From positions 1 through 39,204 of the forward strand of contig CALAOR010000059.1 of assembly GCA_937889595.1 (NCBI GenBank): a DNA stretch of 39,204 nt, in the 5' to 3' direction. The stretch comes from an uncultured bacterium. Lineage in GTDB: Bacteria > Oederibacteriota > PGYV01 > Palsa-1178. Of this stretch, positions 10,767-39,204 are shown piece after piece. Position numbers and translations under genes: made by a program. Every line of letters begins with the position of its first letter. Within the stretch, counting starts at the first letter, position 1. Below the pieces are notes generated by a model. It had not been told where the DNA came from. It saw only the letters and a list, made by a program, of their open reading frames with translations, and searched no databases.

Positions 10767-10806
10767 ATTGTCAAGCTTTTAGGGCAAATCTTACGAGGTG
10801 GATTTA

Positions 10807-13698
10807 ATGCGGTTGTGTTCAAAAATCGCGATTATGGTTGTTGGTTTTATCATATTTGCGTATTCGTTTTCATCCGCTGTCGCATGTTCAAAAAGGCTGC
10901 TCGCGTATTATCCATACTGGAATTCAAATTACCGCGCCGATAAAATACAATATACAAAACTTACACACATATGCCATGCGTTCGCCGCTCCACAGGCAGA
11001 CGGTTCCCTGTATGCCGATCCCGGCCCTCCTGCGCTGCTTGAACCTGCCCTTATAACAAACGCGCATGCAGCGGGCGTAAAGGTACTTATATCGATCGGA
11101 GGGGCATCTACGGCCGGGCAGCCACCGGATTCCACTTTCAGGACAATAGCCGGAAGCGCAGCCTTACGAACGGCATTCGCGAACAGTATCGAGGCGTTTT
11201 GCAGGACAAACGGTTATGACGGGGTGGATATGGACTGGGAAATGCCCGGGGCCATGGATCCCGGGAGCCCGGGCGCCACGGACAGGTCCAATTTTAATTT
11301 AATGATACAGGCGATAAGGACAAAATTCAATTCATCCGCGGCGCCCGCGCCTACATGGCTCATCTCGATCGCGGTTTCGTCGGGCAACTGGGGCGCGCAG
11401 TGGCTCGATTATCCTACTTTAAACAACTACGTTGATTTTTATAATGACATGACTTATGACATGCACGGCAGCTGGAACCTGACCATGGGATATAACGCGC
11501 CGCTGTATCAGGGGAATTACGCCGAGGACAACCTGTCGGATGCGTCAAGCATGGATTATATTTTAACGGCAAGGGCGGTTCCGCCGGACAAAGTAAACAT
11601 GGGAATGCCTTTTTACGGGCAGTATTATCCGGGCCCAAATTCGCTTTTTTATACCTGCGGCAATTGCTCAACAACACAGGCAAATTATAACGCAATAGCG
11701 CCTTTGATAGGCAACGGCTGGACATACCACTGGGACGCCGCGTCGCAGGTGCCGTACCTGACAAATGATGGCGGGACCGGCATATATTCATACGACGATG
11801 CCCAGTCCATAGGCGCGAAGGCCGACTACGCGCTTAATTCGATAAACGCGGGCGGTGTCTTCATGTGGGACCTGTCCGAGGATTATATTACAGGCAGCGA
11901 ACCCCTGCTGGACGCCATGTATTCCAAGGTCAGCGTTTTCTGTTCAGCCGGCTCCCCGACATTCACGCCGACATATACAAGGACGCTCACAGCCACGCCC
12001 ACTTTGACCGCCACAAGGACAAACAGCGCGACAGCCACAAGGACAAGCAACGTGACCCCTACTATCACGCCGACCACGGGCCAATGCTGGACGCTTGTAT
12101 GGTCCGATGAATTCAACGGCCCTTCTATAGACACCACAAACTGGAATTTTGAGACAGGGTGCACGGGATGGGGGAACAGCGAATATGAAAACTATACGAA
12201 CAATGCCGCAAATTCCTACACGCAGGGCGGCGACCTTGTAATAAAGGCGGTAGACCTGGGGACGGGAGGAGGCAATTGCGGATATACTTCCGCGCGTATG
12301 ACGACAAGGGGCAAAAGACATTTTACATACGGAAAGATAGAGGCCAGGATAAAGTGCCCTTATGGCCAGGGCATATGGCCGGCTTTCTGGATGCTGGGCT
12401 CTGATATCGACACGATAAGCTGGCCCGCGTGCGGTGAAATAGACATCCTTGAAATGATAGGCGGCGGGTCGGGCAGGGATAATGTGTGTTTCGGTACAGC
12501 TCACTGGGATAACGGCGGGAACCAGTCTGCCGGAGGCCAGCATTCGATTGTGTGGCCGGCGAAACTGTCGGATGACTACCATATTTACGACATAGAATGG
12601 GACGCTGTATCGATAAAATTTTTCATGGACGGCGTCAATTACAGCACAGTGAATACTACAGCGGCAGGCATGGAAGAATTCCAGGGAAAATATTTTTTTA
12701 TTTTGCTTAACGTGGCTGTAGGCGGCCCAGGCAGCTGGCCCGGGGCCCCGGACGGGACTACGGTATTTCCGCAGATGATGAATGTTGATTATGTCAGGTG
12801 GTACCAGATGCAGGCCTGTGTCGTGTCGCCGACAATAACCCCGACTATTAACGGCACGGCGTCCAGGACTCCCACGCCTTCTTTTTCAAGGACCATGACG
12901 CCTTCAATAACCGGGACCATGACCCGGACGTGCACAGGTACGCCTTCTTTTACCCCAACATATTCTTTTACCCGCACAGCTACAGGAACAATAACATTCA
13001 CAAATACCGCAACCCGCAGCGCGACGGCAGGCAGTACGCAGACTTTTACCATAACACCGACAAATATCGTGTCGCCAACGGCAACCCAAACATGGACCGG
13101 CACGCCGTTGATATTGACAAATACAGCGACAGCCTCCAGAACGCCATCATTTACGCCAACCTATTCTTCCACCAGGACATATACGCCGACGTTCTCATAT
13201 ACGGCAACTCGCAGCGCGATACCTTCTGCCACTGCCAGTTTCACTGCGTCTGTTTCGCCTTCAAATACTTATACATACACCGTGACCGGAACAATTACGG
13301 CCCTACCGACCCCGAGCGTGACAATAACGCCGTCTGCCACCGGCACTCTCCTGCCAAGTATTACACCGACTTTAACGGCAGTGGCGCAGGAAAAGCTGAA
13401 AGTGATAGATGTGCTGGTTTATCCAAATCCCGTACTTGCAGGCACAGACAGCTTAAACTTTGTTATTACTTCCACTGCTGCGCCGGACTCTGCCAGGATA
13501 AAAATATACACGAGGGCATTCAGGCTGATAAGGGATATAACCTTTACCTCGGGCCTGTCATATGAGAGCAAGGTCCGGCTTCCGCTGTCAATAACCTCCG
13601 GTCTTGCAAGCGGGGTGTATTATTATGACGTTATCCTGCACAACCCGCAGGGTGAACAGGCAAAGAGCAAAGCAGGCACGTTTATTGTTTTAAGGTGA
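10807..13698 (+). CDS. Secreted bifunctional glycosidase: GH18 chitinase plus GH16 beta-1,3-glucanase
   Basis: A 963-residue exported enzyme. A signal peptide (FIIFAYSFSSAVA) precedes a GH18 domain at about 27-375 with the chitinase catalytic motif DGVDMDWE (D138 to the acid/base E145) and the substrate strand SIGGAS. A Thr-rich linker follows (about 380-425). A GH16 laminarinase-type domain covers about 427-665, with the catalytic motif EIDILE (nucleophile E544, acid/base E549) and WPAFWMLG. A second, longer Ser/Thr/Pro linker (about 670-855) leads to a C-terminal FlgD-like Ig domain beginning VYPNPVLAG and ending GTFIVLR, like the tail of the NHL protein. GAGGTGG at 10795-10801 favours ATG 10807 over the GTG at 10798. 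GH18 would hydrolyse chitin or peptidoglycan-like N-acetylglucosamine chains, and GH16 beta-1,3-glucan. Together they suit attack on fungal cell walls or mixed detritus. Activity on either polymer is inferred from the motifs. Confidence 0.93.
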   Translation: MRLCSKIAIMVVGFIIFAYSFSSAVACSKRLLAYYPYWNSNYRADKIQYTKLTHICHAFAAPQADGSLYADPGPPALLEPALITNAHAAGVKVLISIGGASTAGQPPDSTFRTIAGSAALRTAFANSIEAFCRTNGYDGVDMDWEMPGAMDPGSPGATDRSNFNLMIQAIRTKFNSSAAPAPTWLISIAVSSGNWGAQWLDYPTLNNYVDFYNDMTYDMHGSWNLTMGYNAPLYQGNYAEDNLSDASSMDYILTARAVPPDKVNMGMPFYGQYYPGPNSLFYTCGNCSTTQANYNAIAPLIGNGWTYHWDAASQVPYLTNDGGTGIYSYDDAQSIGAKADYALNSINAGGVFMWDLSEDYITGSEPLLDAMYSKVSVFCSAGSPTFTPTYTRTLTATPTLTATRTNSATATRTSNVTPTITPTTGQCWTLVWSDEFNGPSIDTTNWNFETGCTGWGNSEYENYTNNAANSYTQGGDLVIKAVDLGTGGGNCGYTSARMTTRGKRHFTYGKIEARIKCPYGQGIWPAFWMLGSDIDTISWPACGEIDILEMIGGGSGRDNVCFGTAHWDNGGNQSAGGQHSIVWPAKLSDDYHIYDIEWDAVSIKFFMDGVNYSTVNTTAAGMEEFQGKYFFILLNVAVGGPGSWPGAPDGTTVFPQMMNVDYVRWYQMQACVVSPTITPTINGTASRTPTPSFSRTMTPSITGTMTRTCTGTPSFTPTYSFTRTATGTITFTNTATRSATAGSTQTFTITPTNIVSPTATQTWTGTPLILTNTATASRTPSFTPTYSSTRTYTPTFSYTATRSAIPSATASFTASVSPSNTYTYTVTGTITALPTPSVTITPSATGTLLPSITPTLTAVAQEKLKVIDVLVYPNPVLAGTDSLNFVITSTAAPDSARIKIYTRAFRLIRDITFTSGLSYESKVRLPLSITSGLASGVYYYDVILHNPQGEQAKSKAGTFIVLR

Positions 13699-15001: not shown

Positions 15002-17905
15002 ATGAGAAAAACTATAATTTTTACGGTTTTAGCCTTGTTTTTGACATCTGTTTCTTCCTTTGGCATTAATAAGATACGCTGGAAAGAAATGGACTGGAAG
15101 ATTTACGAGACCGAACATTTTAAGATATATTATTACACAGGCGAGGATTTCCTTGCAAGGCTTACTGCGGTATACGCGGAAGAAGCCTACATACACGACA
15201 CCGCAGTGCTTGATTTCAAGCCTAAAAACCCCATACCTTTATTCATATATGAGAACCATATAGATTTTGCGTCCACCAACATAACCCTGTCACCTTTAAC
15301 TGAAGGGACCGGAGGCTTTACAGAGCCTTATAAGAACAGGGTTGTACTGCCCGGGACCGGGTCCTTAAAGCAGCTGCGGCAGGTGGTATTCCATGAAGTA
15401 ACCCATGCAGTGCAGTTTTCCATATTATACGGGGAAGGGCTGCGTTCATACAATGTTGTATATAAGGACTTATTTAACCCGCTTTGGGTCATGGAGGGCA
15501 TGGCCGAGTACTGTGCCGATGATCTTGATTCACAGGGCGAGATGGTCCTGCGCGACGCGGTCGTCAATGACAGGCTTGTGCCGCTGGACAAGCTTGACGG
15601 GTTCGCCCATCTTGAAGAAGTGTATCTTGCCTATAAGGAAGCGCAGTCGGTTTTTATGTATATGGAAAAGATACGCGGCCCGAAAGTCATATCGGAACTA
15701 ATTAAGGCTTCTGGGGAAGAGGCGGGCATGGACGGGCCCTTCAAAAGAATACTAAGAATGGACTTTGATTCGTTCAAAAAAGACTGGGAATTTTATTTAA
15801 GGCGCAAGTACTGGGCCCAGGTGCAGGGAAGGGACAATCCCGGGAAATACGGGCCGCGTTTGACCAAAAACACACGGGAGAACTTTACTTACGACCAGGG
15901 ACCCGTATTCTCTCCGGACGGCACAAAAATAGCCTTTATTTCCACCCGCGCTGGATATTACGCTTTATACGTTATGCACAGCGACGGCAAGGAGCAAAAG
16001 GAAGCCTTTTCTGGATTTGACGCCATATCCACGGAAGGCAAACCCATATCCTGGGCGCGGGATAATTCAACGGTTTATTTTGCGGCGACGGACAGGGGCA
16101 AAAGATATATATACAGGGGAAACACGGATACCGGTGCATTGCAAAAAATAGAGGTTCCCGGAATTTTTGACCTGTACTCGCCGGCAATATCCCCGGATGA
16201 AAAATTCATAGCCTTTACGGGAAACACGGAAGGCTTCTCGGACATATACGTATTGGATATCGCGGCCGGAAAAGCGGAAAAAGTGACGGATAATATTTAT
16301 GAAAATAACAGCCCTTCATGGTCGCCTGACGGGACACAGATGGCCTTTACCGAGGAAAGGGACGATTATATAAGGATTGCGGCCATAGACTTAAAGACGG
16401 GAAAAAAAAGGTACATAACAAAACCCGCGCATTATAACTATGTAACGCCTTCATTTATTTCAAATGATGAGCTTATATTTTCTTCCGATAAAAACGGCAT
16501 ATTCAACCTTTATAAGATCAAGACATCCGGTCTTGGCGAAACACAGCTTACAAATGTGATAGGCGGCGCGCTGTACCCGTCATATAACAACGGTTATGTG
16601 GTGTACAGTAATTATGAGGACGGATGTGAAAATATTTACAAGTACCTTGATGACAGAAAAAGGGATTTTCCCGAAATGCCGCTGTCTTATGACGCATCTC
16701 TGCTTACAAAGGCAGAGGAAAAAATCCCGGCTGCAAATGCCGCTGTTTCGCCTACCCCCGCTGTCTTGATTACCGCGGCGGCGCGCCCGGATGACACGGA
16801 CGACAGGAATAAAATAGAAGCACAAGCCCGTGAAATAATCGTAAAAAACGAAGAGTATTCCACAATGCTGACCCCGGACCTTCTTTTTGCCCTGTTCGGG
16901 TACGGGACAGACACAGGACTTGTCGGCGGAGGATACCTGACCGCGTCGGACATGCTGGGGAACCATAACCTGTCCCTGCTCGCAAATTTTGTGCCGGGAT
17001 ATTACTCGCAGTTTGAGCTTACATATCTTTATATGAGCCTGCCTGTTGATATAGGGCTGTCTTTATATTATGACCAGAATGTTTACCAGCTGTATGATAC
17101 TAATACAGGCAATTTTTTGTCGCAGCTTAACTCCACGCAGGTTGGAGGTGCCGTCTCGATCAAATACCCTTTTAACCTCTATACGAGCCTGGAATTGGAT
17201 ATACAGTCTTCGAAAAATTCCGATAATTACACGGATTTTCAGACGGCAAACGCCTATATCTTTGAGAATTCAAACGGCACCCAGGTATTAAACAGCCTGG
17301 GATTGAAGTTCTTGTATGACCATTCATCCTGGAGGGATTTTTGGCCATACTCGGGCGAAGTGATCACGCTTTACGCGGAAGCCGCGGACAGGTTTTTTGA
17401 CGGCACCGAGACGTACAGCCTGTATGAAGCTGATATAAAAAAGTATTTTGACCTTTCATTTATTACGGAAAAAAATCTGAACATATCTACACACTTGCTG
17501 CTTGCCTCAACGCAGGGGCCTGACAGGCCGCTTTTCCTTGTGGGCGGGCCGGATACGCTCAGGGGCCTGGAATACGGGGACCTCACAGGCGACTCTATCG
17601 CGCTTTTTTCCGCAGAGGTCAGGTACACCCTGGCCAAAAACATAAACGTGGATATATGGCCCCTGACTTTTATTATGCTGAAAAACATAAAGCTGGCGTT
17701 TTTTGACGATATGGGGCTGGTCAGGACGGGCAGCCTGAAGAACATAACCAATCAGGAACTGAAGAACGGCATAGGTTTATCCATGGTGCTGGATACGTTC
17801 CTGTTCCAGCGGCAGTTCATGCCTTTGAAGCTTGAGGTCGCGAAAAGGACCGACATAAGCGATAATATATGGAAGTTTTACTTTTCCATAAATACGGGAT
17901 TTTAA
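15002..17905 (+). CDS. Envelope protein: HEXXH peptidase-like domain, TolB-like propeller and Omp85-like barrel
   Basis: A 967-residue protein with a signal peptide (MRKTIIFTVLALFLTS). Residues about 25-290 form a gluzincin-like (peptidase MA) domain: HEVTH at 131-135 supplies two zinc ligands and the catalytic Glu, and E165 or E169 in MEGMAEY would be the third ligand. Residues about 300-570 hold TolB/PD40 propeller blades, each with an S-PDG-x-x-I/M-A-F core (FSPDGTKIAF, WSPDGTQMAF). After a low-complexity stretch near 580-600, the last 330 residues are alternating strands with a LRGLEYG turn near 855 and a terminal aromatic (NTGF), as in Omp85/BamA-type barrels. The protein is therefore probably anchored in the outer membrane with the protease-like part in the periplasm or outside. 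Substrate unknown. The combination of all three parts in one chain is distinctive. It is followed by a heptamer repeat and uppP. Confidence 0.85.
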   Translation: MRKTIIFTVLALFLTSVSSFGINKIRWKEMDWKIYETEHFKIYYYTGEDFLARLTAVYAEEAYIHDTAVLDFKPKNPIPLFIYENHIDFASTNITLSPLTEGTGGFTEPYKNRVVLPGTGSLKQLRQVVFHEVTHAVQFSILYGEGLRSYNVVYKDLFNPLWVMEGMAEYCADDLDSQGEMVLRDAVVNDRLVPLDKLDGFAHLEEVYLAYKEAQSVFMYMEKIRGPKVISELIKASGEEAGMDGPFKRILRMDFDSFKKDWEFYLRRKYWAQVQGRDNPGKYGPRLTKNTRENFTYDQGPVFSPDGTKIAFISTRAGYYALYVMHSDGKEQKEAFSGFDAISTEGKPISWARDNSTVYFAATDRGKRYIYRGNTDTGALQKIEVPGIFDLYSPAISPDEKFIAFTGNTEGFSDIYVLDIAAGKAEKVTDNIYENNSPSWSPDGTQMAFTEERDDYIRIAAIDLKTGKKRYITKPAHYNYVTPSFISNDELIFSSDKNGIFNLYKIKTSGLGETQLTNVIGGALYPSYNNGYVVYSNYEDGCENIYKYLDDRKRDFPEMPLSYDASLLTKAEEKIPAANAAVSPTPAVLITAAARPDDTDDRNKIEAQAREIIVKNEEYSTMLTPDLLFALFGYGTDTGLVGGGYLTASDMLGNHNLSLLANFVPGYYSQFELTYLYMSLPVDIGLSLYYDQNVYQLYDTNTGNFLSQLNSTQVGGAVSIKYPFNLYTSLELDIQSSKNSDNYTDFQTANAYIFENSNGTQVLNSLGLKFLYDHSSWRDFWPYSGEVITLYAEAADRFFDGTETYSLYEADIKKYFDLSFITEKNLNISTHLLLASTQGPDRPLFLVGGPDTLRGLEYGDLTGDSIALFSAEVRYTLAKNINVDIWPLTFIMLKNIKLAFFDDMGLVRTGSLKNITNQELKNGIGLSMVLDTFLFQRQFMPLKLEVAKRTDISDNIWKFYFSINTGF

Positions 17906-17910
17906 GAATT

Positions 17911-18013
17911 GTTCTCTGTTCTGTGTTCTCTGTTCTCTGTTTTGGTACACAGAACACAGAACACAGAACAAAGAACAAAGAACAAAGAACAAAGAACAGA
18001 GAACAAAGAACAG
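17911..18013 (+). repeat. Heptamer tandem repeat and matching inverted arm upstream of uppP
   Basis: Nine head-to-tail copies of AGAACAN (N = C, A or G) run from 17951 to 18013. Four copies of the complementary unit GTTCTNT occupy 17911-17938, so the two sides can fold into a stem of up to about 28 bp. The repeat ends against the ribosome-binding site GAGGAGGA of uppP (ATG 18026). It fills the gap after the barrel gene and may end its transcript as well as shape the uppP leader. Confidence 0.85.
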
Positions 18014-25910: not shown

Positions 25911-26002
25911 AGATAGTAGAAAGTAGATAGTTGAGCAGTAGATTGTGGTAGGTAAAGCCTAAGGGCATTATATAACGGCTCTACAGGTTGTTTTTTTGAT
26001 TT

Positions 26003-26109
26003 GTAGAGAGGCTGCTTGCTGCCTCTCTGACGCGGGCTTTACAAACGCAGAACCATGCAAACGGCCGTTCCAAAGGCCGACGATGAGCGGCAGCAAGCAG
26101 CCGCTCTAC
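26003..26109. repeat. 107-bp GTAGAG...CTCTAC palindromic element, copy 1
   Basis: Runs from GTAGAGAGGCTGCTTG to AAGCAGCCGCTCTAC. The last 80 bp (26030-26109) are identical to the last 80 bp of copy 2. The left arm folds (GAGAGGC-TGCTTGCT-GCCTCTC) and the outer ends are complementary. No open frame is convincing here. Copies 1 and 2 fill most of the 407-bp gap 25911-26317. Confidence 0.85.
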
Positions 26110-26139
26110 AGATTTATTGAAGTTATTATTTTTGAATTT

Positions 26140-26246
26140 GTAGAGAGGGGGCTTGCCCCCTCTAAAACGCGGGCTTTACAAACGCAGAACCATGCAAACG
26201 GCCGTTCCAAAGGCCGACGATGAGCGGCAGCAAGCAGCCGCTCTAC
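26140..26246. repeat. 107-bp palindromic element, copy 2
   Basis: A second copy, 30 bp after the first, with 26167-26246 identical to 26030-26109. Only the left hairpin differs: GAGAGGGGGCTTGCCCCCTC instead of the GCTGCTTGCTGC version. That left hairpin almost matches the one at 10596-10620, linking the two loci. Confidence 0.85.
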
Positions 26247-26317
26247 GGATTTATAGAAGTAATAAATCCATTCCCGTCTTCATAGCCTTTATAAAACAAC
26301 TAAGGAGAAAATAAAAA

Positions 26318-27070
26318 ATGGTAGAAGCAATTCTTACAGTCTTAAGCCAGTTTGTACAGAATATGTTCATGTTTTTCGGGCCTTTTGGCATTGGTATAAT
26401 CCTGGCCATGGCTATTGAGAGCGCTTGTATACCTCTTCCCAGCGAGATCATCATGCCTTTTGCCGGATATCTTGTTATAACCGGCGGTTTGAACGGCGCG
26501 CCTTTTTATCATTTCGGCGGGCCGCAGATGACCATATTTGTCGTGGGGATGCTCGGCGCTTTGGGCTGCCTTGTGGGTTCCATAGCCGCTTACGCTTTGG
26601 GAATATACGGCGGCAGGCCTTTCCTTAACAAATACGGGAAGTACATGTTCATATCGCATCATGATATGGACCTGGCTGATAATTTTTTTAATAAGCACGG
26701 GGAATTAGCCATTTTTTTCAGCAGGCTCATGCCTGTTGTGAGGACCTTCATATCACTCCCTGCCGGGATCGCGAAAATGAACTTCTGGAGATTCTGTTTT
26801 TACAGCATGCTGGGTTCCATACCGTGGTGCTGGGCTTTGGCCTGGGTCGGATGGAAAGTCGGTTCACACGCCGGTGACATCACGGGTTATAAGGAAGCGC
26901 TGAAGCATTCCCTGGGAAAATGGCTGCACCTTGTTGACGCGGTAATATTGCTGCTTTTAATCGCGGGTGTTGTATGGTATGTCATGAGGCACTTGGGGCT
27001 CATGGAAAAGCAGAAACAAAAAGAAGCGGCTGAAGGCAAGACAACAAAAAAAATAAAAAAGAAAAGATAA
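26318..27070 (+). CDS. DedA family membrane protein
   Basis: A 250-residue inner-membrane protein of the DedA/SNARE-associated (VTT) family. It shows ESACIPLPSEIIMPFAG near 30-46 (the E and P-x-P-S-E motif of the first re-entrant loop), FSRLMPVVRTFISLPAGIAKM near 140-160 (the F-x-R-x-x-P-x-x-R-x-x-x-x-x-x-AG motif), and several hydrophobic segments. The C-terminus is strongly basic. DedA proteins act as membrane lipid scramblases or flippases; some return undecaprenyl phosphate across the membrane, which would tie in with uppP at 18026. GGAG at 26303-26306 precedes ATG 26318. Which lipid this member moves is not shown by the sequence. Confidence 0.9.
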   Translation: MVEAILTVLSQFVQNMFMFFGPFGIGIILAMAIESACIPLPSEIIMPFAGYLVITGGLNGAPFYHFGGPQMTIFVVGMLGALGCLVGSIAAYALGIYGGRPFLNKYGKYMFISHHDMDLADNFFNKHGELAIFFSRLMPVVRTFISLPAGIAKMNFWRFCFYSMLGSIPWCWALAWVGWKVGSHAGDITGYKEALKHSLGKWLHLVDAVILLLLIAGVVWYVMRHLGLMEKQKQKEAAEGKTTKKIKKKR

Positions 27071-27082
27071 AAGGAGCTTACT

Positions 27083-27964
27083 TTGCATTTTCAGGACCTG
27101 ATATTTACCCTGCAGGATTTTTGGAAGAAAAAAGGATGCATCATAGCGCAGCCTTATGACATAGAAAAAGGCGCGGCAACTTTCTCCCACTCCACTTTTT
27201 TCCGCTCGCTGGGGCCCAAGCCGTGGAATGCGGCATACATAGAGCCTTGCAGGCGGCCCAAAGACGGGCGCTACGGCGAGAACCCGAACCGTTTTCAGCA
27301 CTACTATCAGTACCAGGTTATCATGAAACCGGCGCCCGGGAACATACAGGAGATGTACCTGGAATCCCTGGAAGCCATCGGCATCAAAGTAAAGGAACAT
27401 GATATTAAATTCAATGAAGATGACTGGGAATCGCCCACGCTTGGCGCGTCGGGATTGGGCTGGCAGGTGTGGCTTGACGGTATGGAAATAACCCAATTCA
27501 CCTTCTTTCAGCAGATGGCCGGCATAACGCTAAACCCCATATCAGCGGAGCTGACATACGGGCTGGAAAGAATAGCCATGTACATACAGGGCGTGAACAG
27601 CGCCTTTGACATCAAGTGGAACGGCACGGTCACATACGGCGACGTGTTCCTGGAAAACGAGAAGGAATACTCGGCTTATAATTTTGAACACGCCGATACG
27701 GTCATGCTGCTTTCCACCTTGAATAATTTTTACAGGGAAGGCGAAAGGCTCTCGGGCCTTAACCTGCCCATACCGGCTTATGATTATGTGCTTAAAATAT
27801 CTCACTTGTTCAACCTTTTGGACGCGCGCAGGGCCATATCCATCGCGGACAGGCCGTCATTCATAAAAAAAATAAGGGACCTCGCGAAACTGTGCGCCGA
27901 TGGATACATGAAACTGACAAATCAGCCGGCGGAGAACCAGGATGCAAAGGCGGGCGGCAAATAA
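27083..27964 (+). CDS. glyQ: Glycyl-tRNA synthetase alpha subunit
   Basis: A 293-residue class II catalytic subunit of the bacterial alpha2-beta2 glycyl-tRNA synthetase. [10 protein letters not shown] opens the protein; [19 protein letters not shown] and GRYGENPNR form the active site with motif 2, and [14 protein letters not shown] is motif 3. Length is normal. It begins with TTG at 27083, supported by AAAGGAG at 27070-27076; no in-frame ATG lies near the conserved start. It follows dedA by 12 bp and its TAA stop shares one base with the glyS ATG. Confidence 0.96.
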
Positions 27965-30042
27965 TGTCAAAACTCATACTTGAAATAGGCGTAGAAGAAA
28001 TACCCGCGGATTATCTGGCTCCCGCCATAAACCAGCTCAAGGAAGAGGCAAAGAAGGCACTGGACGCAAAGCTTATAGGTTACAGTGAAATTTCCGGGCT
28101 GTATACCGTGCGCAGGTTCATACTTTTAATCGACGGTTTGGAAGACAAACAGAAGGACCTGTCATTTGAAAAAAAGGGACCCAGGTATGACATAGCCTAT
28201 AAAGACGGGGATATGACGGACATAGGAAAAACATTTCTGGCAAAAAACAATATAAATGAAAAAGAACTTAAAATAAAGGAAGAAAAGGGGCAAAAATACC
28301 TTTTTATCGATGTTTTTGAAAAAGGCCGGCCGGTGAAAAAAGTGTTATCCGAAATACTGCCGGAACTTATCCGGGGTATGCGTTTCCCAAAATCCATGGT
28401 ATGGGATGATAGCCTGGTAACTTTTGCCAGGCCCATCAGGTGGATACTGTGCATGCTCGATACTGAGGCCGTGCATTTTAATTTTGGCAGGATACAATCG
28501 GGAAATCTAACCAGGCTCCACAAGTTTATCCACGATAATAAGGCGGTGCCGGTAAAAGATGCCGACGATTATCTCAAACAAATGGTAAAAAACGGGATAA
28601 TCTTAAGCCAGGAAGCGCGCAGGAACGAGATACGTTTTAACGCGAACTCCCTGCTGAAAAAATCAGGCCTGGTCCTCATGGAAGACGATGACCTGCTTGA
28701 ATCCCTGGCAAGTTCGGTCGAGTCGGTTACCGCCATGACAGGAACGTTTGACGAGAAATTCCTTTTCCTTCCCAAAGAAGTCATAATAACCGCCATGCGC
28801 GAGCACCAGCGTTACTTTGCCGTGTCAAAAGAGGACGGGACATTTACCAACCGTTTTGTAAATATCCGCGACGGGGGCGATAAAAACAACGATTTCATCG
28901 CAAAACAGCATGCAAAGGTCCTGTATTCGCGCTTATACGACGCCGAGTTCTTCTATAAAGAAGACCTAAAAACACCGCTTGAAAACAATAATGAAAAACT
29001 GAAGGAAGCCATATTCATAACGGGCCTCGGCACCATGTATGAAAAAATGGAACGCTTAAAAATGATGGCCGCGCGGTCAAAGGACCTGTTCGGATACGCG
29101 GATCCGCAGATATTATCGGAGGCCGCCTCATTTTCCAAGGCTGACCTCATGACAAATATGGTGGGCGAAAAAGAATACGCAAGCCTGCGCGGTTTTATGG
29201 GCGGCGTATATCTGGCAAAGCAGGGCAAGGAAGAAAAAGTCTGGAAAGCCGTAAGCGAGCATTACCTGCCTAACATGGCGGGCGATAAGCTGCCTTCAAC
29301 CGCAGAGGGAGTTTATTTAAGCATGATAGACAAGATGGACAACATAGTAGGATTCTACATAGCGGGATTTAAGCCTACGGGAAGCAAGGACCCGTACGCG
29401 GTGCGACGTCAGGTCCTCAATATCATTTATACGGTCATGGAAAAGCAGATCAACCTGGACCTGGCCTTTTTCATATATGAAAATGCGCTTGCATACAAAA
29501 AACAGCTCGGGAAAGATACCGACACTGCGGAGATAATTGAATTTTTCAGGCAGAGGGAAATAAATTACTTCAGGGAAAAAGGCATAGACTACGATATAAT
29601 CAGCTCGGTTTGCCTGGGAAAAGTTATGAATATAAATGACGATTTTAAAAAGGCTGAGATGTTCATGGAGGACCGCAAGGACACAAAGGATTTTAACGCC
29701 ATAGTGTTCGCGGTAAGCCGCATGGCAAACATAGTGCCGGCAAAATATGAAACCGGAAAAACAGACAGATCGCTTTTTGACGCGCCTGAAGAAGGCGTTC
29801 TGTATGACAAGTTCACTGCGGAAAAAAACGCGGTTGAGAATATGATAATTGAAAAACGATACAAAGAAGCTTTTGACAGGATAGCGTCTTTCAAGCCGGC
29901 CATAGATGAATACTTCAACAAAGTAATGGTAATGGCCGAGGATATAACGAAAAAAAATAACAGGTTGAATATGATGGCGGAAATCAGGGACGTTTTTTAC
30001 AAACTGGCGGATTTTTCCAAAATCGTGGTGGATAGGAAATAA
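27964..30042 (+). CDS. glyS: Glycyl-tRNA synthetase beta subunit
   Basis: A 692-residue tRNA-binding subunit that works with GlyQ. LILEIGVEEIPADYL at the start is the family signature. Other marks are VTFARPIRWILCM, FLPKEVIITAMREHQRYF, an HD-like central region and DKMDNIVGFYIAG...SKDPYAVRRQ near 455-485; a C-terminal anticodon-binding domain follows. ATG 27964 overlaps the glyQ stop (TAATG), a classic coupled start. The frame is open upstream to 27892, but that part lies inside glyQ and is not real. Confidence 0.96.
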   Translation: MSKLILEIGVEEIPADYLAPAINQLKEEAKKALDAKLIGYSEISGLYTVRRFILLIDGLEDKQKDLSFEKKGPRYDIAYKDGDMTDIGKTFLAKNNINEKELKIKEEKGQKYLFIDVFEKGRPVKKVLSEILPELIRGMRFPKSMVWDDSLVTFARPIRWILCMLDTEAVHFNFGRIQSGNLTRLHKFIHDNKAVPVKDADDYLKQMVKNGIILSQEARRNEIRFNANSLLKKSGLVLMEDDDLLESLASSVESVTAMTGTFDEKFLFLPKEVIITAMREHQRYFAVSKEDGTFTNRFVNIRDGGDKNNDFIAKQHAKVLYSRLYDAEFFYKEDLKTPLENNNEKLKEAIFITGLGTMYEKMERLKMMAARSKDLFGYADPQILSEAASFSKADLMTNMVGEKEYASLRGFMGGVYLAKQGKEEKVWKAVSEHYLPNMAGDKLPSTAEGVYLSMIDKMDNIVGFYIAGFKPTGSKDPYAVRRQVLNIIYTVMEKQINLDLAFFIYENALAYKKQLGKDTDTAEIIEFFRQREINYFREKGIDYDIISSVCLGKVMNINDDFKKAEMFMEDRKDTKDFNAIVFAVSRMANIVPAKYETGKTDRSLFDAPEEGVLYDKFTAEKNAVENMIIEKRYKEAFDRIASFKPAIDEYFNKVMVMAEDITKKNNRLNMMAEIRDVFYKLADFSKIVVDRK

Positions 30043-30589: not shown

Positions 30590-32395
30590 ATGCCGGACAA
30601 AAAAGTAAGATCAGGGTCAAAACAGACGCTTGTTTTTCTTGGTTTTATTTTAATGTCATTATTTATCTCAAGACCGTTGTTTTCAGCGTGGTGCACACCG
30701 ACTGCCGCCACTCTTTGTGTAGCCGCAGACGACATAGCTCAAGTATGGATAAATGACAATTTCGCGGGCTCATTCACATACGTAAACTGGGATCAAACCG
30801 GGGTTTACCCGAAGTGCATATCAATACCCGCCGCATGGATATTTGATTCGGTTCCCAATGTAATAGCCATAGACGTAAGAAACACCCGGTGCTGCGAAAT
30901 ATGGGGAAGCTGGACCATAGAATCTATGTGCCAGGACGGCACCCACTCGTGCTTATCCAGCGATGACCCGGGAATGATGCTGTACAACGCGCTGACCCCG
31001 CAGCCGACTCCGTCACCGCCGCCCCCTGACGGCAACGGCAAACTCTGGTGGCAGGTGCAATATACGGCTGTTGCGACGCCTATTTGGCAGTCCGCAGTTG
31101 TCGATAACGGGACTATTTACGGAAAACTTATTTATAACCCGTGTACGGGTAAAAGATTGCAGCCGCTGTCTTATAGCAGCGGAGGAAGCGGTCCTGTTCC
31201 AGAAAATCACATATACATGAGGCAGCCTTTCAGCATGAGCCCGGTTCCCACGCTGCCGCCCGCAAATTTTACCATATCAAAATCAATTGTGGGAGCGCCC
31301 CTTAACAATGTAAACACCGGCGACCGCGTGACATACCAGCTGCTGGTGTGCAACACCGGCCAGGCAGTTGTTGATTCGTCCGTGCTTCTTACCGATGACT
31401 ATGACAATGGATTTTCTTTTGACGGGCCTTACGGCGGCGACTGCGCGGGAAACGGCGACGGAAGCCCGTGCAGCCAGAATGGAACGGGCATATTCACTAC
31501 AAGTTGGATGCGGGGATTCCCTGGAATGACCTGCGTGACTATCACGGGAAAAGTTGTGGATTACTATGTAGACGGGAGCGAGTACTGCCAGTACAGGTCC
31601 AACTGGGCGGGTGTGCACTGGACAGGCGCGGTCAATGACGCCGTATCCAATACCGTAGTCGTGCGCATAACATGCCCCGGCACGCCGACATACACGAAAA
31701 CACTCACACCCACATTTACAATTTCAAATACAAATACTTTTTCCCCAACACAAACCGCCACACCCACAAGGACCAGAATATCCACGCTGACACAGACTTT
31801 ATCGTTCACCATAACACCCACAATAACATTGACATGGACAGTCTCGCAGACATGGACCCCGCACGCCGGGCTGAGCAACACATATACGCCGACTATAACC
31901 ATGACACGGACCCAGACAATAACATTGACGTCAACATACACGTACACGCCGACTTACACGCCTTCTATCACGGTTACACCTACGTCAACCATCACAAACA
32001 CGTGGGTCAATGCCGTAAATATATCAAAATCAGAGGACAAGACACAGGTGCCCATGGGTGACACTGTCCAGTACTGCATAACATTTACAAATGTGGGCGC
32101 AGGCCCGGCTACTTTTGACATATGGGACACCATACCGGACGTGACCAATTTCCTGTGGTGCACCGAAGGATGCACTGCGCCGTCTTCGGGAAGCCAGGGC
32201 AATACTTATGTTGTTGATTGGCACTTAACCAATGTTCCGGCGGGGGCTTCAGGAACGGTCTGCATGTGGGTTCAGCTTGAAAGATGGCCTTACTTCAGGC
32301 CGGGGAGGCTGAAGGAGTATTTTGCCGGGCTTAAGAACAGGCTAATGGCGTATTTCAGGAATGACGATTACAGTTTAAATTCTAATTACCAATGA
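30590..32395 (+). CDS. Secreted surface protein with Thr-rich spacer and C-terminal DUF11 domain
   Basis: A 601-residue exported protein. A signal peptide (TLVFLGFILMSLFIS) is followed by a Cys-rich N-terminal domain (about 35-145) of unknown type with paired cysteines. A Pro-rich hinge (TPSPPPPDG) comes next, then a DUF11-like Ig domain (about 220-360), a Thr/Ser/Pro spacer of TYTPTxT units (about 363-465), and a second DUF11 domain (about 468-565) with KSEDKTQVPMGDTVQYCITF and IWDTIPD. The tail after it (RLKEYFAGLKNRLMAYF) is amphipathic. The DUF11 tail is shared by the next two proteins. DUF11 proteins are stalk-like surface proteins; adhesion is plausible but unproven. TAA at 32393-32395. 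Confidence 0.8.
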   Translation: MPDKKVRSGSKQTLVFLGFILMSLFISRPLFSAWCTPTAATLCVAADDIAQVWINDNFAGSFTYVNWDQTGVYPKCISIPAAWIFDSVPNVIAIDVRNTRCCEIWGSWTIESMCQDGTHSCLSSDDPGMMLYNALTPQPTPSPPPPDGNGKLWWQVQYTAVATPIWQSAVVDNGTIYGKLIYNPCTGKRLQPLSYSSGGSGPVPENHIYMRQPFSMSPVPTLPPANFTISKSIVGAPLNNVNTGDRVTYQLLVCNTGQAVVDSSVLLTDDYDNGFSFDGPYGGDCAGNGDGSPCSQNGTGIFTTSWMRGFPGMTCVTITGKVVDYYVDGSEYCQYRSNWAGVHWTGAVNDAVSNTVVVRITCPGTPTYTKTLTPTFTISNTNTFSPTQTATPTRTRISTLTQTLSFTITPTITLTWTVSQTWTPHAGLSNTYTPTITMTRTQTITLTSTYTYTPTYTPSITVTPTSTITNTWVNAVNISKSEDKTQVPMGDTVQYCITFTNVGAGPATFDIWDTIPDVTNFLWCTEGCTAPSSGSQGNTYVVDWHLTNVPAGASGTVCMWVQLERWPYFRPGRLKEYFAGLKNRLMAYFRNDDYSLNSNYQ

Positions 32396-32779: not shown

Positions 32780-32941
32780 TTAAGTAGGGAAATGGCTTGA
32801 GAATATAGAGTTTTTTAGAACAAGACAGTAGTGTCTATTAAGGCATTGTTCTGTACCTCGGAAAAGTGTGTTCAAAATGAAATGTATGTATTTTGTGAGG
32901 AACAAATACAGCTAAAAAAATTGTTGAGGAGACGGGAAAAA

Positions 32942-34357
32942 ATGAGAACAAAAATTAATAATACAGTGAATAGAAAACTGATAATATTAATTTTCGCGGT
33001 ATTTATTACCGCGTTTCCGGTTTCATTATTTTCAGCCACGCTCACGGTTTGCTCAAGCGCGTGTTCTTACACTACCCTGGCCCTGGCTATTGCGGGAGCG
33101 GCAAGCGGGGACACGATACAATTACAGCAAAACATCACGGAAGACATAACTTTGGATAGTTTCAGCAAAACTTTGACGATTACCAGCGACGGCACAAGAA
33201 GGACATGGACCAACAGCAGCGCCAGGAACCTGTATTTTACAAATACCGGCGGATATAACATAACCATCCAGAATTTAGACATGGTAAATACAGGCGGCAG
33301 TGAAACCGTACTTATGAATCAGGCCGGAAGCCTTTACTTCAGAAATGTGAAGATCTCAAATACCACGGGCAGCGGAAAGCTGGTATACATGCAAAACGGT
33401 GGCAACATGTATTTTTACCAGTCGGAATTAGTGGGCAACGCGCTCACCCCGGTCGGCATCCAGATAGCATCGGGCGTTAACTACCCGAGCGGTGTTTACG
33501 CGGAAAACACGATTTTCAGGGAAATAGGCAACGGCAATGCCGTTCAGTGCGATCAGAATTCGGGAAGCAACATGATGTACATATACAACTGCACGTTTGA
33601 AGGGAATAAAACCGCTTACAATTCTTTGTCGGCCGGGCTTATCAAGAACTCGCTTTTTATCAACAATACCGACGATGTCAGCGTTTCAGGCAGCGGGGCA
33701 TTGACTAATTTTACTTACTGCGGATTTTCCCAGCAGACAACCTTTAGCGGAACGACAGGAAATATATTCGGCCTTACACCCGTCAATGTGGTCGTAAACC
33801 TTTCCGGACATGACCTTCACCTGGTTTGCTCGGGTAACTCCGTGGTTGACGCGGGAACCGACATGTCGGCATTTTATACCGTTGACAAAGACGGAGTAAC
33901 AAGGCCGCAGGGGCCGGCTTATGACATGGGCGCGTACGAATGTCCGGTATTAAATTTGTCAAAGTCGGCAAGTTCCACATTTGCCTACCTCGGCGATACA
34001 ATAACTTACTGCCTGACATATACCAATTCTTCCTCTTCAGACAGGGATACGAACATATGGGATACGGTCCCCGCGAATACTTTGTACCTGGGATGCAGCG
34101 GCGGGTGCGACCTGGTGGGGGGCACCATAGTGCACTGGTTTTTGACGGTAGGCGCCGGTTACAGCGGCACGCTTTGTTTCTGGGTCAAAGTGACAGGGTA
34201 CCCGTTTATTAACGGGGAGAGCGGGTTCTTCGCGGACGCGGACTTAAGGAAATTACAGGCATCAGGCAGCACTCACTCAATCCTTGCGCTCGACGGCTGG
34301 AAGTTCTGGATGGCCGGGGCCGATGGTTATGTTAAAAAAAATAGGGAAGAAAGGTGA
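32942..34357 (+). CDS. Secreted right-handed beta-helix protein with C-terminal DUF11 domain
   Basis: A 471-residue exported protein. GAGGAGACGGG at 32926-32936 favours ATG 32942; the frame is open back to 32831 without a site. The signal peptide (KLIILIFAVFITAFPVSLFSA) is followed by a parallel beta-helix (about 35-340) with repeated short strands such as YNITIQNLDMVNT, GSLYFRNVKISNT and NMMYIYNCTFEGN, as in pectate-lyase-like adhesins. The end of this part has a typical VDAGTDMSAF and GAYECP close. A DUF11 domain follows (about 340-430) with KSASSTFAYLGDTITYCLTY and NIWDTVP. Such proteins bind or cleave polysaccharide; no lyase catalytic set is evident, so binding is more likely. Confidence 0.85.
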   Translation: MRTKINNTVNRKLIILIFAVFITAFPVSLFSATLTVCSSACSYTTLALAIAGAASGDTIQLQQNITEDITLDSFSKTLTITSDGTRRTWTNSSARNLYFTNTGGYNITIQNLDMVNTGGSETVLMNQAGSLYFRNVKISNTTGSGKLVYMQNGGNMYFYQSELVGNALTPVGIQIASGVNYPSGVYAENTIFREIGNGNAVQCDQNSGSNMMYIYNCTFEGNKTAYNSLSAGLIKNSLFINNTDDVSVSGSGALTNFTYCGFSQQTTFSGTTGNIFGLTPVNVVVNLSGHDLHLVCSGNSVVDAGTDMSAFYTVDKDGVTRPQGPAYDMGAYECPVLNLSKSASSTFAYLGDTITYCLTYTNSSSSDRDTNIWDTVPANTLYLGCSGGCDLVGGTIVHWFLTVGAGYSGTLCFWVKVTGYPFINGESGFFADADLRKLQASGSTHSILALDGWKFWMAGADGYVKKNREER

Positions 34358-34362
34358 TGAAA

Positions 34363-35193
34363 ATGTTTAAAAATAAATTTAACCCGCTTAAATCCGGAAT
34401 GATACCGGTTGTATTTGCGCTGATTTCATTTTTAATTTTATCATATCCGGTTCCGGTATATGCGGCTGCGTCATTAACGAGTTTTACATCCAACCCTGTT
34501 TTGCCTTGTGGTGCGGCCGGGCAGACTATAACAATCACCACCGTCGGAAAAGCCGCTGCCTATATGACCTTAAATTATGCAATTTTTTTCTCGGCAAATA
34601 CAACTGCCGGAGACGCTGGTGATGTCAGGGTGACTGGAAGCGCGTGCGGTCAGGGAGGGGTTGTCGGAGTAGAGGGAGCAACGTCTGTAGATATGACAAA
34701 AGTGGATGTTATTACAATCCCTGCAGGCACGTTTAATTATATTATTTTGACGCTGACTGAAAACAGTAGTTATGATTGCACAAATAAAGCCCAGCTTTCT
34801 TTTTCTACCGCCTGCGCAGGCAGCCCGATAACGGCTCAAAAGTCCGCGTCGCCAATGTCGGTTTGCGTGGGAAATAATGTTACATTCTGTATTACCGCCA
34901 CAAACACAGGCGGCTCGGCATACACGTTTAATATCTGGGATACGGTCCCGGCAGGTCTGACCTTTGTCGGGTGCGACAATTCATGCACACTGTCAGGCGG
35001 GGTTGTTTCCTGGACAATACCAAGTCTGGCCGCAGGCGGCTCCGTGACAAGGTGCTTCTGGGCATCCGCAAATACGGTGCCTTTTTATGAATTGCATAAA
35101 ATATTTCTTGCCAATAACAGCTGGAATCCATCAGTGGGAAAAAGATACAGCGTTCTTTACATGCTTGGAAATTATGATAGTTTTGAAAACTGA
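34363..35193 (+). CDS. Secreted protein with N-terminal CGAAG domain and DUF11 domain
   Basis: A 276-residue exported protein. Starts at GTG 34354, ATG 34357 and ATG 34363 are all in frame; AAAGG at 34350-34354 fits ATG 34363 best. The signal peptide ends near VPVYAAA. Residues about 28-145 form a beta-rich domain with SNPVLPCGAAGQTI, TTAGDAGDVRV and IPAGTFNYIILTLTEN, which is clearly duplicated in the next gene. A DUF11 domain (about 155-245) follows with FNIWDTVPAGLTFVGC. The gene begins 5 bp after the previous stop, so it is in the same operon. I cannot name the N-terminal domain. Confidence 0.8.
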   Translation: MFKNKFNPLKSGMIPVVFALISFLILSYPVPVYAAASLTSFTSNPVLPCGAAGQTITITTVGKAAAYMTLNYAIFFSANTTAGDAGDVRVTGSACGQGGVVGVEGATSVDMTKVDVITIPAGTFNYIILTLTENSSYDCTNKAQLSFSTACAGSPITAQKSASPMSVCVGNNVTFCITATNTGGSAYTFNIWDTVPAGLTFVGCDNSCTLSGGVVSWTIPSLAAGGSVTRCFWASANTVPFYELHKIFLANNSWNPSVGKRYSVLYMLGNYDSFEN

Positions 35194-35227
35194 AAACGGA
35201 ATATAAATCTAAAAAAGGAGCGACGGC

Positions 35228-38200
35228 ATGAAAACAAACAGGCTGTTCCCAGTGAAGAGCGGGATAGGCTTGTTTGTATTTTTAGCTGTTGTATTTTTGA
35301 TTTTCGTAAATCCGGAGTCAGTAAATGCGACTGCGTCCTTTGTAAGTTTTTCATCCAATCCATCGCCTGCCTGCGGAGCGGCCGGATCAACGATATCACT
35401 CACCAGCGTCGGACGATCCGCGGCGAATAGCACATTGTCCTATTCTATATGCTTTTCTGCGGATACTACCGCAGGAAACGCAGGAGATGTTTGGGTAATT
35501 GGAACAACGTGTTCAAATGGAAACGTGACTCTTGGAAGCGAGGGTGGGACGGTTGTAGATTTGACAAAAACAGATACGGTTACAATTCCGTCAGGTACGT
35601 TTAATTATATTCTTTTGAGACTAAATGAAAACAACGGGAATAATTGTACTATTGGTGGGCAACTTGCTTTTACTACAGTCTGCGGTGGCCCATCAAGCAC
35701 GGTTTCACCGACCATAACGCCGACCATAACGCAGACAGTGACGCGGACCGTGACGCAGACTGTGACGCGGACTATCACTCAGACCATAACGCAGACTATG
35801 ACGCAGACCATATTTCAGACTATAACGCAGACTCCCACAATAACAAATTCGCCGTCGTCGACTTTTACTCTTACGCCGACAAGGGTGTATATCAGCAATA
35901 TCGCAAAAGCAGACGGGGGAGATACAAATTCCGTTCTGATAGAGGTGCTTCCATATTGCGGGTCGCCGACGAATTCTCCGACCATGTCACCGACATGGAC
36001 GCTGTCATCCACGCTGACGGCGACCCTTTCACCGACGATTACAATAACAAATTCGCAGTCGCCTACTTATACGAATACTGCGGTTCCATCAAATACAATT
36101 TCGCCGACGTTAACCATGACTCCGACTTTTACAGCGACGGTTTTTTGCGCAATAAGGAACATCACGGGAAACGCGAGTGGCGGCATGCCTTATACGGATT
36201 GTAACGGGAACGTATGGTCCGCGGACCAGGCGTATTCCGCCGGAAGCTGGGGATATACGGTGTCCGGCGCGGCCACAAACCAGGGCGCTCCGACCGGAGC
36301 CTGCGCCGCCGATAATACAAATCTTTACAAACCTGAAAGATACGGCTCGACGGTTACTTATAGATATGACAACCTGCCCAACGGGACATACCAGATAATC
36401 CTGAAATTTAACGAAGCAGTCGACACCAGCGCGGGGTACAGGACCTTTGACATACAAATACGGGGTACGACCGTGGCGACGGCTTTTGATATATTTGCCG
36501 CTGCCGGGGGCCAAAATAAGGTCATAGATAAGGCGTACTACTATACGGTAACAGACGGTTATATCACAATAAGCCTGGTCAGGAACGGCGGAACAGATGC
36601 CAGCGCTAAAATAGACGCCATCGCCATATTGGGGGGGGCATGCCAGTTGACCCCGACTATTACAATGACAATTACGCCGACGTCTACAAATACAAATCTG
36701 CCGTCACCGACTTATACGGGAACCATAGCTCCATCAAATACAATAACACAGACCCCTACATTTACTTACACCCCTACATGGGGAGGGGGTTATATATATA
36801 ACACGGGTAATACTTCCTATGGGACGAGCAACCAGGTTGCGGTGGCTGTTTACAGCCCGCTTGGCACCGTGAGTTATACCCCCACATTTACCAAGACATA
36901 TACCGCTTCACCTACCGCCACAAAGACTGCCACGCTTACTTTCACATATTCCCCGACCGTAAGCCCTACCGGAGTGCAGAATGTCGCGGAATGGGATAAT
37001 GATTACTCAAACCATGTCGGTTTCATAGTAATAACCAATACGTTCACGCCAACCAATACCCCGACATATACAAGCACGGCCACCCCCACAAACACGCCTT
37101 CTTTTACCGCGACATTTACAAATACGCCTTCTTTTACCCCTACATTTACCTTTACCCTGACGGTAACCCAGACAATAACACAGACATCGACCAAGACTAT
37201 AACACAGACTGTAACGCAGACTGTGACGCAGACTGTGACGCAGACCGTAACACAGACCATAACGCAGACAGTAACACAGACCATAACGCAGACAGCAACA
37301 CAGACCATAACGCAGACAGCAACACAGACCATAACGCAGACTGTAACACAGACCATAACACAGACTGTAACACAGGCTATAACGCAGACATCCACTACGG
37401 CCCAGACTAATACATATACTGTGACAGTAACCCAGACAATTTCCCCGACAATAACGCCGACTAATACGCCGAGTATAACGCCTTCCATTACGAGTACTAT
37501 AACCCAGACCGTCTCTACAACAATAACCCAGACAATAACCCAGACAACGACGCAGACGATAACGCAGACGACAACACAGACGACAACGCAGACGATAACG
37601 CAGACGATAACACAAACGACAACGCAGACGACAACGCAGACGACAACGCAGACAGTCACGCAGACAGTCACGCCTACTATTACCAATACAACAACACCTT
37701 CTGTAACCCGGACAGCGACCCAGACTGTAACGCAGACAGTAACAAATACAACCACTCCTTCAGTGACGCAGACGGTTACGCAGACTGTAACTTCTACAAT
37801 AACCAATACAACCACCCCTTCGACAACACAGACAGTAACGCAGACCGTAACTCCAACAATAACAAATACAACAACTCCTTCAGTAACGCAGACAGTGACA
37901 CAGACTGTAACTCAAACTGTAACACCGACAATAACAAATACAACCACACCTTCAGTAACTCAGACAGTTACCCAGACGGTCACGCAGACAGTTACTCCGA
38001 CAATAACAAATACAACCACGCCTTCGGTGACGCAGACCATGACCCAGACCGTCACGCAGACAGTTTCAAGAACAGTAACGCAGACCATGACACAAACAAT
38101 AACACAGACTGTCACGCAGACTGTAACTCCTACAATAACAAATACAACCACACCTTCTGTAACTCAGACAGTAACGCAGACCGTGACACAGACGGTAACT

Positions 38201-39204
38201 CAAACTGTAACGCCGACAATAACAAATACAACCACACCTTCAGTAACTCAGACAGTTACACAGACGGTCACGCAGACAGTTACAAGCACAGTGACGCAGA
38301 CCGTAACGCAAACAGTAACGCAGACAGTGACACAGACCTCAACCCAGACAGTGACGCAGACCGTGACTAAAACTGTAACTCCTACAATAACAAATACAAC
38401 AACGCCCTCTGTAACGCAGACAGTAACGCAAACTGTGACGCAGACAATGACCCAGACAGTTACACAGACAGTAACGCAGACGGTTACACAGACGATCACG
38501 CAGACTGTAACTCCTACAATAACAAATACAACCACACCTTCGGTAACTCAGACAGTTACCCGGACGGTCACGCAGACTGTTACACAGACAGTAACGCAGA
38601 CGGTAACGCAAACCGTAACACAGACAGTGACGCAAACCGTGACACAGACAGTGACGCAGACTGTAACGCAGACCGTAACGCAAACAGTGACGCAGACAGT
38701 AACACAGACAGTAACGCCGACAATAACAAATACAACCACACCTTCAGTAACGCAGACAATCACGCCTACTATAACTAATACGACAACACCGACGGTAACG
38801 CAGACCGTGACGCAGACAGTAACCCAGACAGTAACACAGACAATAACGCAGACTGTTACACAGACAGTAACTCAGACCGTAACTAAGACGGTTACACAGA
38901 CAGTGACGCAGACAGTGACGCAGACAGTAACACAGACAGTAACACAGACAGTAACGCAGACCGTAACGCCGACAATAACAAATACAACCACACCTTCAGT
39001 AACGCAGACCGTAACTCAGACTGTAACGCAGACCGTGACACAGACGGTTACACAGACGGTAACACAGACAGTAACACAGACGGTGACGCAGACAGTGACG
39101 CAAACCGTGACCAGGACTGTAACTCAAACCGTGACGCAGACCGTGACTCAGACAGTAACGCAGACCGTAACGCAAACAGTGACGCAGACAGTGACACAGA
39201 CAGT
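35228..39204 (+). CDS. Giant secreted malectin-domain protein with extreme V/I-T-Q-T repeats, 3' end beyond the window
   Basis: The + frame is open from ATG 35228 (AAGGAG at 35215-35220) to the window edge: 1325 codons and no stop. A signal peptide (LFVFLAVVFLIFVNPESVNA) precedes a copy of the CGAAG domain of the previous gene (about 35-150). Thr-rich spacers (about 155-300) contain a short globular insert near 215-250. A malectin-like carbohydrate-binding domain sits at about 307-472 (GYRTFDIQIRG, VIDKAYYYTVTDGYITISL). After more Thr/Pro spacer and a small insert near 505-530, the chain from about 640 on is nearly pure VTQT/ITQT, broken by TPTITNTTTPSVTQ units. No hydrophobic anchor is seen before the edge. 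It probably forms a long, rigid, perhaps glycosylated stalk. Long opposite-strand frames here are shadows. Third-position variation among repeat units argues against an assembly artefact. Confidence 0.9.
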   Translation, partial: MKTNRLFPVKSGIGLFVFLAVVFLIFVNPESVNATASFVSFSSNPSPACGAAGSTISLTSVGRSAANSTLSYSICFSADTTAGNAGDVWVIGTTCSNGNVTLGSEGGTVVDLTKTDTVTIPSGTFNYILLRLNENNGNNCTIGGQLAFTTVCGGPSSTVSPTITPTITQTVTRTVTQTVTRTITQTITQTMTQTIFQTITQTPTITNSPSSTFTLTPTRVYISNIAKADGGDTNSVLIEVLPYCGSPTNSPTMSPTWTLSSTLTATLSPTITITNSQSPTYTNTAVPSNTISPTLTMTPTFTATVFCAIRNITGNASGGMPYTDCNGNVWSADQAYSAGSWGYTVSGAATNQGAPTGACAADNTNLYKPERYGSTVTYRYDNLPNGTYQIILKFNEAVDTSAGYRTFDIQIRGTTVATAFDIFAAAGGQNKVIDKAYYYTVTDGYITISLVRNGGTDASAKIDAIAILGGACQLTPTITMTITPTSTNTNLPSPTYTGTIAPSNTITQTPTFTYTPTWGGGYIYNTGNTSYGTSNQVAVAVYSPLGTVSYTPTFTKTYTASPTATKTATLTFTYSPTVSPTGVQNVAEWDNDYSNHVGFIVITNTFTPTNTPTYTSTATPTNTPSFTATFTNTPSFTPTFTFTLTVTQTITQTSTKTITQTVTQTVTQTVTQTVTQTITQTVTQTITQTATQTITQTATQTITQTVTQTITQTVTQAITQTSTTAQTNTYTVTVTQTISPTITPTNTPSITPSITSTITQTVSTTITQTITQTTTQTITQTTTQTTTQTITQTITQTTTQTTTQTTTQTVTQTVTPTITNTTTPSVTRTATQTVTQTVTNTTTPSVTQTVTQTVTSTITNTTTPSTTQTVTQTVTPTITNTTTPSVTQTVTQTVTQTVTPTITNTTTPSVTQTVTQTVTQTVTPTITNTTTPSVTQTMTQTVTQTVSRTVTQTMTQTITQTVTQTVTPTITNTTTPSVTQTVTQTVTQTVTQTVTPTITNTTTPSVTQTVTQTVTQTVTSTVTQTVTQTVTQTVTQTSTQTVTQTVTKTVTPTITNTTTPSVTQTVTQTVTQTMTQTVTQTVTQTVTQTITQTVTPTITNTTTPSVTQTVTRTVTQTVTQTVTQTVTQTVTQTVTQTVTQTVTQTVTQTVTQTVTQTVTQTVTPTITNTTTPSVTQTITPTITNTTTPTVTQTVTQTVTQTVTQTITQTVTQTVTQTVTKTVTQTVTQTVTQTVTQTVTQTVTQTVTPTITNTTTPSVTQTVTQTVTQTVTQTVTQTVTQTVTQTVTQTVTQTVTRTVTQTVTQTVTQTVTQTVTQTVTQTVTQT
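36631..36638 (+). repeat. G8 tract inside the malectin-domain gene
   Basis: Eight consecutive G lie in codons ttG-GGG-GGG-Gca at the end of the malectin-like domain. Gain or loss of one G would end or rescue the rest of the giant reading frame, as in phase-variable surface genes. In this read the frame is intact. Confidence 0.75.
37141..39204 (+). repeat. Degenerate 12-bp tandem repeat encoding (V/I)TQT, continuing past the window
   Basis: The unit is GTN ACN CAR ACN; wobble bases vary freely while the amino acids stay fixed. About 13 copies of a spacer unit encoding TPTITNTTTPSVTQ recur, beginning near 37674, 37737, 37796, 37855, 37922, 37999, 38128, 38212, 38383, 38512, 38716, 38769 and 38967. 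They divide the array into longer blocks of unequal length. The array has no stop in the + frame and is still running at 39204. Confidence 0.9.

Follow-up and report, generated by a model that had tools for sequence, protein, structure and literature searches.

Locus and gene layout

The stretch of DNA analysed here (the window, 39,204 bases) is the whole of contig C59, which belongs to a genome of the phylum Goldbacteria (Goldiibacteriota, FCPU426) assembled in 93 contigs (3.42 Mb, 99% complete). The placement in this phylum follows from PheS, which has 93% identity to the PheS of FCPU426 isolate palsa_1178, several of the next best matches also coming from FCPU426 or Goldbacteria genomes. 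The last gene of the contig starts at an ATG at position 35228 of the forward strand (which also carries glyS and the DUF11 genes described below) and is preceded by a Shine-Dalgarno-like AGGAG (35216..35220, read directly), 7 bases 5' of the ATG. The frame is free of stops up to 39202, where the contig end cuts it, so that the product comprises at least 1,325 aa. The initial annotation had described the frame as open to the edge, which was borne out, the window end being the contig end. It had also warned that ordinary gene lists could miss such a gene and give reverse-strand shadows in its place; reverse-strand ORFs of 114-270 aa are present, all five other frames contain stops, and ordinary lists would truncate the gene.

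The giant ORF comes after an operon-like row of secreted-type DUF11 genes located behind glyS (glycyl-tRNA synthetase beta, 27892..30042), a synteny landmark which is itself outside the system. The first of these genes (30590..32395) carries DUF11, the second (32831..34357) a weak DUF11 match, and the third (34354..35193), which overlaps the second by 4 bases, combines DUF11 with an N-terminal domain also found in the giant protein. In relatives, secreted genes of the 30590..32395 type likewise lie ahead of the giant ORF that follows glyS, and no relatives of the protein encoded at 34354-35193 were found in a scan of genome contigs. Elsewhere in the window, a single ORF combines GH18 and GH16 domains (10798-13698), two 7-bp tandem repeats (17910-18012) separate an ORF that stops at 17905 from the BacA gene (18026), and a 137-bp tandem repeat (two copies, 92% matches, 25993-26260) is placed just 5' of an ORF at 26318.

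The giant protein begins with a signal-peptide-like stretch (35228..35347, translation judged by eye), in which Lys/Arg are followed by GIGLFVFLAVVFLIFV. The next domain (35348..35692) is the one common to the preceding gene, with 58% identity within the domain by tblastn, and a Pfam search returned no match for it. A Thr/Pro/Ser linker that includes a short stretch of (T-x) (35693..36175) leads to a malectin-fold domain (36176..36652), after which another Thr/Pro linker, containing the short modules GGYIYNTGNTSYGTSNQVAVAVYS and GVQNVAEWDNDYSNHVGFIVIT (36653..37159), gives way to the stalk repeat (37160..39202). A module approximately 25 residues long, with the rough pattern (P)TG(V/I)(Q/H)N(I/V)(A/G)xxxxxxSNxVxFhhhT, recurs between the Thr-Pro linkers of giant proteins: copies lie at 36785-36856 and 36971-37036 of the window and in other loci (L158, L192, L202, L203, L271), nine distinct instances among the loci examined.

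The malectin-fold domain

That the gene encodes a giant surface protein bearing a malectin-like domain had been proposed from the outset, and the proposal, extended to a secreted protein, is supported. The domain is real: it matches Pfam PF11721 with 79 bits against a gathering threshold of 23 (E 5e-22), PDB sequence matches agree with this assignment, and its AlphaFold2 model (pLDDT 82) finds human malectin as its best PDB match by Foldseek, with a TM-score of 0.73. The model also matches the C-terminal domain of a Bacteroides beta-glucuronidase. No relatives of the folded part were detected among the phage records or viral contigs searched.

In Xenopus malectin, the residues contacting diglucose include Y89, Y116 and F117 (PMC7783096). 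The Y89 position is retained here (LYKPERY), while Y116/F117 are replaced by V/D, the alignment numbering having been counted by hand; the aromatic pair is retained in most Goldbacteria paralogues of the alignment. Because two ligand aromatics are replaced, binding of sugar by this copy appears doubtful.

The threonine repeat: composition and selection

The repeat spans residues 645-1325, that is, 681 residues of which 344 are Thr. Thr or Ser occupies 339 of 341 alternate positions, the others varying among Q, V, I, P, T and N. More than 650 residues of VTQT had been announced in the initial annotation; the length holds, whereas the purity does not, since twelve ITNTTTP blocks interrupt the prevailing TVTQ unit, always at spacings which are multiples of 4 residues. 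The pattern coding for TQTVTQTVTQ occurs 42 times and never in 100 dinucleotide shuffles. The stalk contains no tandem folded domains, and its sole domain match, DUF445 in Pfam, was taken as a low-complexity artefact. Ice-binding by TxT arrays was also considered and set aside, no turn spacing being seen.

The Thr register of the repeat is under purifying selection. Drift at wobble bases with conservation of the protein, as had been suggested, is evident in the Thr codons, in which the third position has an entropy of 1.2-1.8 bits and the first two positions 0.0-0.5, and third positions hold 306 of the 480 differences from the 12-base consensus. The proposed comparison of synonymous and non-synonymous changes was also carried out: adjacent repeat units gave a dN/dS of 0.16, compared with 1.02 (sd 0.13, minimum 0.71) in a simulated null which is a simple one, with uniform placement of differences and no tree, at a synonymous divergence that is nearly saturated (dS 1.4). 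When the same differences were placed at random, a mean of 13.8 stops appeared, while the real frame has none. Sister repeats of the same genome behave similarly, with dN/dS values of 0.02-0.11 in three stretches of C57 and 0.05 in C58.

The exact TQTVTQTVTQ pattern was found in 11 of the 14 genomes of the window's order and in none of the 31 other genomes of the phylum. It is most abundant in the window's own genome, with 330 matches as against 31 in the next, a comparison in which fragmentation of the metagenome-assembled genomes may depress the counts in the others. Some IMG/VR viral contigs (L303-L305, L307, L313, L319) likewise contain ORFs with Thr-rich (T-x) repeats, so this type of repeat is not unique.

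What such a sequence does is open to more than one reading. The repeat might form a mucin-like coat instead of a spacer, with putative dense O-glycosylation, short glycans being carried on Thr and the residues in between mattering little. The nearly invariable Thr or Ser at alternate positions and the variation at the others would suit this reading, which we regard as a serious possibility while leaning against it. Nevertheless, the positions between the Thr residues are also constrained, V or I being followed by Q in a strict 4-residue register to which the ITNTTTP blocks conform, and this counts against a coat because glycosylation alone does not demand it. Purifying selection on the strict register of 2 and 4 residues, together with the predominance of beta-branched residues, is compatible with a putative ordered beta structure having one Thr face and one Val/Gln face, such as a rod or an amyloid-like zipper joining cells. 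A solenoid, however, needs a turn signal at constant spacing, and none is present, the NTTTP blocks lying 16 to 68 residues apart; an ordered structure of this kind is considered unlikely. The favoured role for the repeat is that of a spacer in a putatively exported protein.

Proposed export: C-termini of sister proteins and relatives of the T9SS machinery in the genome

Six C-termini of sister (T-x) repeat proteins from the same genome were scanned, and the T9SS sorting domain TIGR04183 (cut-off 23 bits) was above cut-off in all of them: C58 (30.0), C24 (40.3), C34 (40.1), C57 (28.5), C16 (34.3) and the far end of C21 (26.3). The Pfam model Por_Secre_tail (cut-off 27 bits) was passed by four of the six (C58 27.4, C24 37.0, C34 36.8, C21 29.1), while C57 (16.9) and C16 (23.7) fell below it; C57 passes FlgD_ig (34.4) and C16 passes CHU_C (31.1). 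In a six-frame genome search with per-genome scoring, C34 came out just under the TIGR04183 cut-off, at 22.1, which indicates that the T9SS-type domains of the sister proteins are divergent. Moreover, the C-terminal domains typical of T9SS are similar to Ig domains of the FlgD type, and a match is therefore not a proof of export. In the genome as a whole, Por_Secre_tail has 54 matches, 46 of them above cut-off.

Relatives of the export machinery are also encoded. A SprA-like ORF of 2,131 aa (C76:18758-25153) matches TIGR04189 with 186 bits, the curated cut-off being 200 (E 5.5e-55), and SprA relatives occur in 40 of the 45 genomes of the phylum. A protein of the PorV/PorQ family (C21:5220-6218; NF033709, 155.8 bits, cut-off 90) is encoded by a gene that adjoins the repeat-protein C-terminus on C21. 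A C25 peptidase that itself bears a Por_Secre_tail (C10:36853-41343) reaches 84 of the 420 bits of the T9SS_sortase model, and could be another C25 cargo rather than a PorU-type signal peptidase. The GldM profile gave no match in 44 genomes and none in the control genomes either. These data suggest that an uncultured phylum exports proteins by a T9SS-like route; among the papers searched, the single one that contains both terms names T9SS only within a reference.

The gene could also stop soon past the edge and lack a sorting domain, its product then being released freely or anchored in another way. Such an outcome would agree with the genes next to it (32831-34357 and 34354-35193), which have no evident sorting domain at their ends; however, all six of the (T-x) repeat C-termini scanned bear a T9SS-type domain, and we therefore hold it to be improbable.

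Contig breaks and the missing 3' end

The C59 gene is not alone in being cut. Within the same genome, repeats of this kind are left 3'-open at the ends of C59, C21, C66 and C89 and 5'-open at the starts of C58, C24 and C34; at least four contigs break inside them. In other genomes, the giant ORF behind glyS is likewise 3'-open to the contig end (G042:C38, G043:C72, G039:C10). The frame disruptions in independent assemblies that would have told against the initial reading are absent from these three, in which the frame runs uninterrupted to the contig ends. The 3' end of the glyS-linked gene is missing in every assembly where the gene was found, even in G039, which consists of only 18 contigs and yet has it broken at the repeat. 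As regards the opposite ends, the C58-type C-terminus was found in nine genomes, in each of which a contig start leaves it 5'-open, and is located shortly 5' of parA and parB in most genomes read. This is, then, a protein class that short-read genomes systematically cut in two. It could be argued, from the ending of C59 and several other contigs in repeat, that assembly has produced the long repeat by collapse or chimerism and that the true gene is short or ordinary. This is nevertheless very improbable: four genomes independently place the gene at this locus, each with an open frame up to the end of its contig; the units differ at wobble bases near saturation, unlike the copies made by an assembler; and the sister gene on C57, which is complete, holds 1,026 (T-x) residues.

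Some of the broken pieces can be joined. C66 and C34 share a 42-base end overlap, and contig C11 of G039 carries C66-type and C34-type pieces together across masked sequence, so that C66 probably continues into C34. The end of C59 has no exact overlap with C58, C24, C34 or C69; its partner, and hence the true 3' end, is most likely C58 or C24. The pairing with C58 is weakened by G037 and G038, which have the C58-type gene and no giant gene in the stretch read behind glyS. In none of the 45 genomes of the phylum do glyS and parB lie on one contig, which carries no information on the pairing. G039 retains four unpaired repeat ends (C10 and C13 outgoing, C8 and C17 incoming), which do not allow a unique pairing, and mapping the partners of C21, C89 and C24 in relatives did not single out an assignment.

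Proposed nature of the protein

Taken together, the ORF probably represents the 5' portion of a gene whose product is fibrillar, exported by T9SS to the cell surface and equipped with a long threonine stalk. Since sister genes carry a sorting domain after such repeats, the giant protein is probably a long surface fibre: the C59 gene would also have a T9SS-type C-terminus, its product would be exported and held at the surface, and the repeat would act as a spacer. According to this scheme, the protein would undergo Sec export by means of its signal peptide, then pass the outer membrane via the SprA-like translocon using a C-terminal sorting domain encoded beyond the contig end, and finally be retained on the surface or released from it. 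The long Thr-rich (T-x) stalk would project the N-terminal and malectin-fold domains.

A bolder version is more speculative, and we would at present give it rather little credit: Goldbacteria would possess an unreported T9SS displaying lineage-specific fibres of several thousand residues, the stalk of which would be an ordered (T-x)n polymer kept by purifying selection, unlike stalks built from domains. If this were true, C59 and C58 would belong to a single gene, which would encode more than 3,200 residues and extend from glyS to parAB.

Comparison with known systems

The malectin-fold domain shares fold and family with malectin/CBM57 (PF11721), which includes animal malectin and the C-terminal domain of bacterial GH2 beta-glucuronidases, and differs from malectin in the V/D read in place of Xenopus Y116/F117. 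As regards the repeat, alternating Thr is likewise seen in the Thr-Pro linkers of Goldbacteria (of the TPTNTPTFTPT kind) and in viral (T-x) repeats, which in the cases examined were shorter or otherwise composed.

The proposed export route resembles that of T9SS cargo with a type A sorting domain (TIGR04183 / PF18962), of which the large T9SS-exported adhesins of Bacteroidota are an example: the sorting domain is present on sister proteins, and relatives of SprA, PorV and C25 peptidases are encoded in the genome. The differences are that the phylum here is Goldbacteria, that the sorting domain is known from the sister proteins alone, and that GldM found no match, controls included.

In overall architecture, close parallels are the fibrillar adhesins and Periscope Proteins (PMC8286594, PMC8201768). 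Their stalk is an array of folded domains, whereas here it is a 4-residue (T-x) sequence repeat, and adhesion is putative; in Periscope Proteins the DNA units are near-identical, while here they have diverged (dS 1.4); and their anchor is of the LPxTG type, where a T9SS anchor is expected in the present case. In common with them, the giant protein is long and probably secreted, places a domain of putative binding type distal to a repetitive stalk, is expected to have a C-terminal anchor, and contains a repeat that breaks short-read assemblies.
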